NCBI RefSeq assembly: GCF_012848855.1
Contig: NZ_CP051630.1
Coordinates: 475,501-539,500 of the forward strand
Direction: 5' to 3'
DNA length: 64,000 nt
DNA from: Pyruvatibacter mobilis
GTDB lineage: Bacteria; Pseudomonadota; Alphaproteobacteria; CGMCC-115125
Shown here: piece after piece, positions 32,250 through 50,977 of the stretch
Layout: each line of letters begins with the position of its first letter
Position numbering within the stretch: the first letter of the stretch is position 1
Notes under the pieces: generated by a model
The model's input: the letters and a program-made list of their open reading frames with translations, nothing else
What the model was told of the DNA's origin: nothing
The model's database searches: none
Translations under genes and position numbers: made by a program

Positions 32250-32370
32250 CTTTTCCTTGTTTCACGACCTGTCATCGCGTGCCTGTGGACCCGCCGGCGC
32301 GTATTTTCCGTGTGCTGGGGCGGGCGGGGCATTTTTTGACCCAAGGCGCATTTTCTGCGTGATTTGTTAT

Positions 32371-32385
32371 TGCGAATTATTCGCA
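32371..32385. promoter_or_regulatory. perfect Fur-like 7-1-7 palindrome with no protein gene downstream
   Basis: TGCGAATTATTCGCA is a perfect 7-1-7 palindrome. The same core (TGCGA...ATTCGCA) precedes bfd at 45241 and the gene at 50311 here, so it is probably the iron-regulator (Fur) site of this genome. A weak promoter, TTGCGA-N17-TACACA (32370-32398), overlaps it. No open reading frame follows on the plus strand before the convergent gene ending at 32708. Confidence 0.65.
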
Positions 32386-32399
32386 TATTGGCTACACAT

Positions 32400-32604
32400 T
32401 CTCTCGATGCTCTTGCATCGCTCTAGGGGAGAGCGTGAGCTGGTCGGCGGGCCCTGAACCTCCAGGTCTGTCGGCGGCTGTGGCACGGATCCCGCCACGC
32501 TCCGCCGGATACATCAGCGCGTCGCACCGCGTATCCCGGCCGGCTCACACCCCTCCCTGCGGGGACAGATGATTTTCAGGATCGTCCTGTCGTCGCGACG
32601 ATCG
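32400..32604 (+). ncRNA. candidate structured small RNA downstream of the Fur-like box
   Basis: Starting about where transcription from the boxed promoter would begin, stems are packed almost end to end. Hairpin 1 pairs CGATGC with GCATCG (32405-32420). Hairpin 2 pairs GCTCT with AGAGC (32420-32434). A closing stem of 13 pairs with two G-U joins 32435-32447 to 32536-32548. Inside it lie a nested hairpin (CGGCGG/CCGCCG at 32472/32502, GTGGC/GCCAC at 32480/32494) and a GATAC/GTATC stem (32508/32531). CCCC/GGGG at 32550-32564 and GATCGTC/GACGATC at 32580-32603, followed by a TTCTTCTCT tract, could end it. It does not match RNase P, tmRNA, 4.5S or 6S signatures that I know. Transcription is inferred only. 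Confidence 0.4.
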
Positions 32605-32707
32605 TTCTTCTCTCAGGTCCCTCTCTCACATTCAGCCCTGCCTGGGCGTCCCGCGCGTATCGGGGCGCGGGCAGGTGCGTTTGTGCTGTTGAGCAGGGGC
32701 GGGGCGG

Positions 32708-34138
32708 TCAGAGGATCAGCGGGACATAGGTTTCGCCGCGCTCGGGGAGCTGGACCTGCCAGCCAAGGCGGTTTGTCATTTCGTCTGCCAGGGCGCGGGA
32801 GGCGCCGGGTTCGCCGTGCATCACGAAGGTCTGGGCGGGCGGGGCGGTGAAGCCGCCCATCCAGTCCAGCAGGGCGCGGCGGTCGGCATGGGCGGAGAAG
32901 CCGCCCAGGGTGTGGACGCCGGCGCGGACGGAGACGTCCTGACCGAAGATGCGGACGCGGGTGGCGCCGTCCACCAGGCGGCGGCCGAGGGTGCCCTCGG
33001 CCTGGAAGCCCGTGATGATGACGGCGTTGCGCGGGTTGGGCAGGCCGTGGCGCAGATGGTGCTTGATGCGGCCGGCGGTGCACATGCCGCTGGCGGCAAT
33101 GATGATGGCACCGCTCTCGATGCTGTTGAGCGCGCGGCTTTCATCAACGCTGCCGGTGAAGGTGACCTGCGGCACGCCGTGGCCGTTCTCCTGCCATTCG
33201 GCGAGGCTGCGGGCCTGAGCGTCGAACAGCTCCAGATGCTCCATGGTGAGGCGCGTCACGGCTGTTGCCATGGGCGAATCCACGAAGATGCGGAGATTGC
33301 CGAGTTTTCCCTCGCGGGTGAGCTGGTGGAAATAGAACAGCAGCTCCTGGGTGCGGCCGACGGCGAAGGCGGGGATGATGATGTTGCCTTCGAGGTCATC
33401 CAGCGTGTGGGTCACCACGTCGACAAGTTCGGTGACGGTGTCGCCGAGATTCTTGTGGTCGCGGTCGCCATAGGTGGATTCGGTGAACAGGATGTCGGCG
33501 GTGCCGATGCGCGTGGGGTCGCACAAAATGGGCCGGCCGGGCTGGCCAAGATCACCGGAGAAGACCAGCTTGCGCTCGCCCTGGGGCGTGGTGATCCAGG
33601 CCTCGATGATGGCGGAGCCGAGGATGTGGCCCGCGTCGCGCAGTTGCACGCGGACGCTTTCATGGGGGCTGAAGGGGGTGTCGTAGTCGTGGCCGCGCAC
33701 GCGCTTCAGGACGGCTTCCACATCATCGAGGGAATAGATCGGCTCGACGGGCTTGCGGTCGCGGTGGTGCTTCTTGCCGCGGTGTTTGTGGCTGGGCTTG
33801 CGGCGGTTCTCGCGCTCGGCCTCGGTTTCCTGGATGTGGGCGCTGTCGCGCAGCATGATCTCCAGCAGGTCGCCGGTGGCGGTGCCGGTGTGGACGGGGC
33901 CGCGAAAGCCCTGGGCCCAGAGGCGCGGGAGCAGGCCGCTGTGATCGATATGGGCGTGGGTTAGCAGTACGAAATCGATGCCGGCGGGATCAAAGGCGAA
34001 GGGGGCGCGGTTCTTGGCGTTTTCCGTGCGGCCGCCCTGGAACATGCCGCAATCAACGAGGAAGCGGACGCTGCCGGTATCGATCAGGGTGCAGGAGCCG
34101 GTGACTTCCTGCGCGGCGCCGTGGAAGGTGATTTTCAT
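32708..34138 (-). CDS. beta-CASP metallo-beta-lactamase-fold ribonuclease-like protein
   Basis: A 476-residue protein of the CPSF-73/YsgA-like branch of the metallo-beta-lactamase fold. Zn-binding motif 2 reads LLTHAHIDHSGLLPRL. Further motifs are RDAGHILGSAIIE and FSGDLGQPGRPIL, then the beta-CASP part (IIIPAFAVGRTQELLF, IFVDSPMATAVT, IIIAASGMCTAGRIKHHL). A C-terminal RMMBL-like end contains LGGFSAHADRRALLDWM. A His/Lys/Arg-rich insert near residue 115-130 (HKHRGKKHHRDRK) is unusual and may bind nucleic acid. Members act as endo/exonucleases on RNA. It overlaps the LOG-family gene by four bases, so the two are co-translated. Confidence 0.9.
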   Translation of the reverse strand: MKITFHGAAQEVTGSCTLIDTGSVRFLVDCGMFQGGRTENAKNRAPFAFDPAGIDFVLLTHAHIDHSGLLPRLWAQGFRGPVHTGTATGDLLEIMLRDSAHIQETEAERENRRKPSHKHRGKKHHRDRKPVEPIYSLDDVEAVLKRVRGHDYDTPFSPHESVRVQLRDAGHILGSAIIEAWITTPQGERKLVFSGDLGQPGRPILCDPTRIGTADILFTESTYGDRDHKNLGDTVTELVDVVTHTLDDLEGNIIIPAFAVGRTQELLFYFHQLTREGKLGNLRIFVDSPMATAVTRLTMEHLELFDAQARSLAEWQENGHGVPQVTFTGSVDESRALNSIESGAIIIAASGMCTAGRIKHHLRHGLPNPRNAVIITGFQAEGTLGRRLVDGATRVRIFGQDVSVRAGVHTLGGFSAHADRRALLDWMGGFTAPPAQTFVMHGEPGASRALADEMTNRLGWQVQLPERGETYVPLIL

Positions 34139-44987: not shown

Positions 44988-45197
44988 TCAGGCCAGGGTC
45001 TTGGCCGGGAGGGCGGTGTCGCGCGCATCGGCCGCGCCGCGCACCTGCTGGACGATGTCCTCAGCCGTATCAAGACAGCAGCCGCAATTGGGCCCGTTGC
45101 CGAGCGCCTCATAGGCCTCGCAGGCTGAACGCGCGCCATTGCGGGCGGCGTCGGCGATTTCGCTGTCGCGGTAGGCGTTGCAGATGCAGACAAACAT
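44988..45197 (-). CDS. bfd: bacterioferritin-associated ferredoxin Bfd
   Basis: A 69-residue [2Fe-2S] protein. Cys4 and Cys6 (MFVCICNAYRD) plus Cys38 and Cys41 (PNCGCCLDTAED) match the cluster ligands of E. coli Bfd; Cys26 and Cys40 are extra. Bfd passes electrons into bacterioferritin to release stored iron during iron shortage. It faces bfr tail to tail and has a Fur-like box upstream, consistent with induction under iron limitation. Confidence 0.94.
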   Translation of the reverse strand: MFVCICNAYRDSEIADAARNGARSACEAYEALGNGPNCGCCLDTAEDIVQQVRGAADARDTALPAKTLA

Positions 45198-45238: not shown

Positions 45239-45257
45239 AATGCGAGCCATTCGCATT
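45239..45257. promoter_or_regulatory. Fur-like box upstream of bfd
   Basis: AATGCGAGCCATTCGCATT has 7-bp inverted arms and shares TGCGA...ATTCGCA with two other sites in the window. It lies about 42-60 bp upstream of bfd, a gene commonly iron-repressed. Confidence 0.7.
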
Positions 45258-45300
45258 TTCAAGGGGTTTCAGGCGGTCAGCTTGCCGCAGGCAGTGCGGC

Positions 45301-50310: not shown

Positions 50311-50790
50311 CTATTGGCGCGTGTGCTGGTGCACATAGAGGCCGGCCCGGCCCATCTGGCGGGCCAGGGTGAGGGCGGCGTCGCAGGCAAGGCGGGCGGT
50401 GGCGGGCGGCAGCCATGTGTCGAGGGCCGCTTCGCCGCCGGCCACGGCTTCCTCCTGGAAGGCGGCGATGACCCTCAGAAGAGCGAGTTCATCAACGGCG
50501 ACCTGGCGGGGATGGGAGGCGAAATCAAGGTGGCGGCAGGCGCCGTGCAGGGCCATCAGCATCAGCTCATCAAACGCCGCATCGGCGCCGGGGCAGCGCG
50601 CGAGGGTGAAGGCCTGGGAAATGAGGCGGCGGCTGCCTTGGTCATTGCCGCGGTCCGACCACCAGGCGCGCGCCGCCCAGACGAGCAGGCGCGGGGCGAA
50701 GGGCAGGGCGTCGAGATAGGCGGTTTCAGCAGCGGGGCGCGGGGCCGTGGCGGCGGTGCCGGCAGGCTGGGTTTCAGGGATGTTGCGCAT
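50311..50790 (-). CDS. hypothetical protein with an upstream Fur-like box
   Basis: A 159-residue soluble, alpha-helical, Ala/Leu/Trp-rich protein (DALPFAPRLLVWAARAWWSD; DELMLMALHGACRHLDFASH; LDTWLPPATARLACDAALTL) with two conserved-looking Cys and no signal peptide. I do not recognise the family. A 23-bp Fur-like palindrome lies 51-73 bp upstream of its start, so it should respond to iron. It sits alone between metE and rraA. Confidence 0.7.
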   Translation of the reverse strand: MRNIPETQPAGTAATAPRPAAETAYLDALPFAPRLLVWAARAWWSDRGNDQGSRRLISQAFTLARCPGADAAFDELMLMALHGACRHLDFASHPRQVAVDELALLRVIAAFQEEAVAGGEAALDTWLPPATARLACDAALTLARQMGRAGLYVHQHTRQ

Positions 50791-50840: not shown

Positions 50841-50863
50841 TTATTGCGAGTCATTCGCAATAA
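50841..50863. promoter_or_regulatory. Fur-like box upstream of the unknown gene at 50311
   Basis: Perfect 9-bp arms TTATTGCGA and TCGCAATAA surround GTCAT. This is the longest of the three related palindromes in the window. Confidence 0.7.
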
Positions 50864-50977
50864 ATAAATGGAGATGGGGGTGTTGGCCGGAATGAGGGAG
50901 TGGGGCAAGCGGCCCCTGGACCTCGGATCGGGTCCGGGATGACGCGCGAGAGTGGGGGGCGCGCCCCTTTTCCGTGT

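Follow-up and report, generated by a model that had tools for sequence, protein, structure and literature searches.

The candidate RNA locus and its predicted fold

Within the window, the stretch of 64,000 nucleotides from a marine bacterium analyzed here, a locus without a protein gene lies beside tRNA-Met and faces a convergent gene (32708-34138) for an MBL/beta-CASP/RMMBL nuclease. On the plus strand, this locus holds a Fur-type operator, a candidate promoter, a series of predicted stems and a candidate intrinsic terminator (Table 1). No recognizable protein gene was found downstream of the box on that strand, as a first, sequence-only reading of this DNA had stated. The transcript would be expected to start near 32404, judging from the position of the candidate promoter, and to begin with a short hairpin (P0), followed by a long closing stem (P1) that encloses the inner hairpins P2, P3 and P4.

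Table 1. Features of the putative RNA gene and the Fur-type boxes of the window (positions in window coordinates; G001 and G002 are related genomes)
Feature	Position	Strand	Basis or remark
Fur-type operator	32369-32391	+	Perfect core TGCGAATTATTCGCA at 32371-32385
Candidate promoter, TTGCGA (32370) - 17 nt - TACACA (32393)	32370-32398	+	By eye; operator overlaps
Start hairpin P0 (CGATGC-TCTT-GCATCG)	32405-32420	+	Sequence; kept in G001 and G002
Closing stem P1, 5′ arm	32426-32447	+	19/22 pairs with 32536-32557
Closing stem P1, 3′ arm	32536-32557	+	Pairs with 32426-32447
Inner hairpin P2, exposed AACCUC (AACCTCC at 32457-32463)	32448-32470	+	Unpaired in predicted ensemble
Inner hairpin P3, GGAUCC loop at 32487-32492	32472-32506	+	Predicted fold; in G002, the canonical CCUCC loop lies here
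Inner hairpin P4	32517-32532	+	Predicted fold
Candidate intrinsic terminator (GATCGTC ... GACGATC, then GTTCTTCTCTC)	32580-32615	+	Sequence; scanner site 32588-32600
Fur-type box before bfd (44988-45197, minus)	45239-45261	-	Profile score
Fur-type box before uncharacterized gene (50311-50790, minus)	50843-50865	-	Profile score

The sequence-only reading had made a 13-pair closing stem its main argument. This stem exists (32435-32447 with 32536-32548) and is in fact the core of the longer P1. Taken alone, however, it is unremarkable, with 13 of 200 dinucleotide shuffles holding a stem of at least 13 pairs; the caution that GC-rich DNA folds easily was justified, and it is the homologues described below that carry the argument. 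The region 32395-32620 as a whole folds better than its shuffles (z = -3.2). Two hairpins had also been proposed at 32405-32434, of which the first (32405-32420) is conserved as a hairpin; the remainder fits better as the outer part of P1.

The Fur-type operator and the candidate promoter

The perfect palindrome TGCGAATTATTCGCA claimed earlier is present, and relatives of this core occur in the window at 45241, before bfd (two mismatches), and at 50845, before an uncharacterized gene (one mismatch). Counting mismatches to the bare 15-mer is uninformative, because three sites with at most three mismatches were found in the window where 3.0 are expected by chance. A Fur-site profile was built from 20 Fur-type boxes, all from genomes other than this one and taken from upstream of a 160-174-aa gene family or of the group RNAs described below. 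Its top three sites in the 64-kb window are the operator at 32369 (25.5 bits) and the boxes at 50843 (25.2 bits) and 45239 (21.8 bits); the next site in the window scores 15.3 bits, and the best site in any of 20 random windows reached 14.9 bits. The cores before bfd and the uncharacterized gene, which the sequence-only reading had called the same, are weaker relatives of the one at 32371-32385.

Under the box, the weak promoter proposed earlier can be made out by eye and is placed as in relatives, several of which (loci L108, L093 and L092) carry TTGCRA and, after 16 nt, a TATAAT-like element in the same register; a promoter scanner, however, found no consensus sigma-70 promoter at this locus. 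The genome (hereafter G000; 3.33 Mb in one contig) has genes for three Fur-family proteins. One of these, taken as the Fur of G000, is 71% identical to a Fur encoded next to one of the RNA copies, in a Henriciella relative, and the remaining two look like Irr and Zur. An operator over the promoter and Fur in the genome are, at the level of sequence, the make-up of a Fur-regulated small RNA (sRNA).

Homologues in Candidatus Phaeomarinobacter

In the set of genomes analyzed, the host family comprises one genus, Candidatus Phaeomarinobacter, of which four genomes were compared (G000 and G001-G003), and two of the three others, G001 and G002, carry a homologous RNA. Searching with 32340-32660 by blastn gave a single weak best match (80% across ~42 nt), at a site in G001 that lies directly behind an acyl-CoA dehydrogenase gene and has the same tRNA-Met ~1.6 kb upstream. 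Here, the Fur-type box GATAATGATTATCGATAAC is followed by GATGCTTTTGCATC, a 20-pair closing stem (20/20) and inner hairpins, and ATCAGCGCGTCGCA, at 32514-32527 in the window, is identical. Used as a DNA query across the whole class, the G001 RNA returned weak matches of 20-40 nt, of which G002 alone was taken further; its box, TATTGCGAATTATTATCGATAA, occupies the same place as the G000 operator, with a start hairpin, a closing stem of 19/20 pairs and inner hairpins behind it. All three RNAs have a Fur-type box, P0 and a long P1 with inner hairpins. The P1 arms are very different in sequence, and own arms pair at 86-100% while foreign arms pair at 61-85%; the check proposed earlier, whether stems hold across relatives, finds P1 pairing retained in G001 and G002 despite the different arms. 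That the locus is well-folding GC-rich DNA beside a chance palindrome, a reading in keeping with the frequency of 13-pair stems among the shuffles, is very improbable: two sister species carry homologues of the box, P0 and P1, which largely refutes it, and the operator scores far above the random windows.

The genomes differ in what follows the RNA. In G001 and G002, an uncharacterized 174-aa gene begins ~40 nt past the stem, and in G002 a siderophore-interacting protein gene also precedes the RNA. No close homologue of the 174-aa gene was found in G000 or G003, and G000 has its candidate terminator where G001 and G002 have this gene. At the corresponding place in G003, the cassette is absent, and the acyl-CoA dehydrogenase and P450 genes, between which it lies in G001, nearly touch. 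The box and RNA had been called orphans, which is true of G000 in that it lacks the 174-aa gene, but the RNA precedes such a gene in two sister species; the orphan state may be derived in this genome.

A wider group of Fur-linked hairpins

A wider group was reached through the 174-aa gene family, which was followed into genomes of Henriciella and of further Alphaproteobacteria. The group comprises 21 copies in other Alphaproteobacteria, and the usual order, at most RNA loci, is a Fur-type box, a ~60-aa protein gene, the hairpin and a ~160-aa gene. The hairpin stem comprises 12-16 pairs, U runs follow it in part of the copies, and the loop has UUCCUCCC or a near variant. In a MAFFT alignment of five sequences, which was not fitted to the stem, five of 14 stem pairs changed on both sides and 91% were paired, and sliding the arms as a control lowered pairing to 29-51%. 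An alignment of 20 sequences, fitted to the stem and so biased toward it, has 96.3% of stem cells pairing and double changes in 11 of 14 pairs, against 31-55% pairing with slid arms. Covariance model R2, run over 105 genomes of Henriciella's family, matched in 15 of them. Held-out members were recovered, G002 by R2 (E 0.012) and L093 by a second model, R3, built later with G002 included (E 3.9e-5). The RNAs of G000 and G001 match neither model; the G000 RNA is tied to the wider group via G001 and G002, a connection that appears good within the genus and moderate beyond it.

Placement next to genes bears on how the element would work. Besides G001 and G002, eleven loci have the hairpin before a ~160-174-aa gene, for which reason a cis leader is left with roughly a quarter of the weight: a Fur-controlled 5′ UTR or intergenic element that would tune translation or transcription termination of that gene, the G000 copy being a relic left after gene loss. 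The short distance from stem to gene, 16-65 nt in several loci besides G001 and G002, fits such a leader, but we consider it unlikely, as nine copies (in about eight or nine genomes) have no 160-aa gene behind the RNA, G000 retains an intact operator and its 19/22 closing stem, and the loop, judged by eye, suits general Shine-Dalgarno sites better than the weak ones of those genes themselves. Action in trans is favored because of the nine gene-less copies. These sit behind the small gene, which in four cases follows a TonB-receptor-like gene in turn. Most of them face a gene on the opposite strand, in one case fur itself.

U runs behind the stem at L057, L059, L090, L091, L109 and L113-L115 would also suit a mere terminator, or a hairpin protecting the 3′ ends of Fur-controlled mRNAs, without any regulatory role. 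Termination, however, does not need the conserved UUCCUCCC loop, and CCUCC is present in 19 of the 21 group copies, mostly unpaired (mean unpaired probabilities of 0.70-1.0, the L089 value concerning another CCUCC, outside the loop). In G000, moreover, no gene lies upstream in the same transcript and a separate terminator stands behind the RNA, so that we regard a purely structural role as rather improbable.

A ~60-65-aa family is encoded ~200 nt before the hairpin (L107-L115, L054, L055 and L089; example pattern MCLPMDD..MVCWL..QVRVL.AWREELA) and had no match in Pfam; by Pfam it is not DUF1127. An AlphaFold2 model of the 174-aa family is all-helical (pLDDT 84), and no fold match was found for it in the PDB. 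Fur-like boxes precede many divergent members of this family, at whose loci the hairpin had no match. In the window, the uncharacterized 159-aa gene at 50311-50790 (minus strand) is a distant relative of the ~160-174-aa family (hhalign E 1.3e-4, probability 54%). At L115, the RNA (1501-1568) lies behind a TonB-receptor-like gene and the small gene, facing fur (1615-2031) on the other strand.

The loop and the aR8 seed

The 10-mer UUUCCUCCCU of the aR8 RNAs is an experimentally supported anti-Shine-Dalgarno seed, which SisA uses in Caulobacter to repress the mRNA of a TonB receptor (PMC12559287). As a single-stranded element, this 10-mer is absent from the G000 and G001 RNAs, and the wider group has UUUCCUCCC or a near variant. 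The inner loop of G002 at the place of P3, UUGGAUCCUCCCGC, retains UCCUCCCGCU, which is almost the GUUUCCUCCCGCU of L092; G000 and G001 carry GGAUCCCG at that inner-loop place, the canonical seed having been lost in both. When R3 was run across the class, it returned many RNAs sharing GCGUUUCCUCCCUAGACUUGGG. These were rejected as further group members, since the 17 matches inspected outside the group mostly had the aR8 loop, and five of the six tested were Rfam RF00519 (suhB/MmgR). The seed is common to aR8, yet the group RNA is distinct, because the RF00519 model found no match in the window, in 32340-32720 or, even at E 5, in seven wider-group loci, and because a separate canonical RF00519 mmgR/suhB sRNA gene with GUUUCCUCCCU is present in all four Phaeomarinobacter genomes (G000:C1:349778-349841, locus L152, and L151, L153 and L154).

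Relation to known RNAs

Rfam searches of the window and of 32340-32720 returned tRNA only, with nothing credible at E 1, and no Rfam family matched the group when its relatives were searched; the earlier statement that the RNA does not resemble RyhB or PrrF is in line with this. Like the Fur-regulated sRNAs RyhB, PrrF, NrrF and FsrA, the G000 RNA is noncoding and has its candidate promoter covered by a Fur-type operator, but it matches them in neither sequence nor Rfam family and has another fold, in another clade.

In logic, the aR8 and cuckoo RNAs are nearest to the G000 RNA. The aR8 RNAs (MmgR of Sinorhizobium, SisA-D of Caulobacter, RF00519 suhB) have the anti-Shine-Dalgarno 10-mer seed in common with the group loop (U)UUCCUCCC, many copies of which have a terminator hairpin; the stems, size and promoter of the aR8 RNAs, however, are unlike those of the wider group, and the G000 RNA is without the 10-mer. 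A constant anti-Shine-Dalgarno loop on varying stems is likewise a trait of the cuckoo RNAs (ar14/NfeR1, and CcsR, whose partner is the small DUF1127 protein CcaF1), and the small-protein gene next to the RNA in the wider group recalls CcaF1/CcsR. In contrast to them, the wider group has one long hairpin rather than several, a small protein without a Pfam match, a Fur-type box in place of sigma-factor control, and no Rfam match. The cuckoo loop motif CCUCCUCCC was not found, the UUCCUCCC of the group loops being a shorter overlap.

RusT of Caulobacter is, as would be the G000 RNA, an alphaproteobacterial RNA tied to iron shortage, but this 118-nt RNA, whose gene is flanked by lolA and xth, is under the control of NtrYX and lacks a Fur box (PMC11005374). 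Two sRNAs were at one time suggested to arise in Caulobacter from the Fur-repressed "CC0682-sRNA1-CC0681-sRNA2" region (PMC3751524); we do not equate this region with the group, because it overlaps a bacteriocin cluster described later (PMC5380434). Matches in a plasmid collection covered 47 nt only, in five Paracoccus records, and were taken as chance. To our knowledge, no Fur-linked hairpin group of this kind has been described, although subscription literature lay outside the search, so that its absence is unproven. The group thus appears previously undescribed, in a mode that resembles known anti-Shine-Dalgarno sRNAs and Fur-regulated sRNAs.

Proposed role of the RNA

With confidence slightly better than even, we propose that the locus encodes a noncoding RNA of ~205 nt, repressed by Fur and acting in trans, that is an offshoot of the wider Fur-linked hairpin group; it is most likely a Fur-repressed RNA of iron starvation. 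With iron, Fur on the promoter-covering box would keep the RNA off. Under iron shortage, the compact RNA, with its start hairpin, P1 and inner hairpins, would be made from 32404 to about 32612, ending at its own terminator. It would act in trans, and the likeliest means is base-pairing between an exposed pyrimidine-rich loop and the ribosome-binding sites of target mRNAs. In the wider group, the hairpin would usually serve as a terminator or lie between genes, downstream of a small-protein gene under Fur control, and its loop carries (U)UUCCUCCC, the aR8 anti-Shine-Dalgarno seed; the G000 RNA would be a stand-alone offshoot of this form. Counting against this proposal are the lack of an R2 or R3 match and of the canonical seed in the G000 RNA, the leader-like position before a gene in G001 and G002, a G003 genome without the cassette, and the want of a consensus promoter. 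The arrangement of an iron-responsive sRNA that the sequence-only reading saw is partly supported, in that homologues back the operator, the noncoding locus and the conserved multibranched fold, but the wider group is mostly an mRNA 3′-end or intergenic hairpin with an aR8-type anti-Shine-Dalgarno loop, not a RyhB-like transcript.

More tentatively, and at somewhat short of even confidence, Alphaproteobacteria could possess a widespread family of Fur-controlled anti-Shine-Dalgarno hairpins, which would be released from the ends of iron-regulated mRNAs for small proteins or receptors and would form an iron-sparing sRNA arm not yet known in this class; the G000 RNA would then have become a separate sRNA gene with its own seed. 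If true, a Fur-linked RNA sharing its anti-Shine-Dalgarno seed with aR8 would supply the missing iron-sparing sRNA arm of Alphaproteobacteria and would tie iron control to the carbon and transport sRNA network. As a guess, the AACCUC in P2 may be the new seed of the G000 RNA. Separately, the palindrome GGAUCC is found in the P3 loop of the G000, G001 and G002 RNAs and could let two copies kiss.
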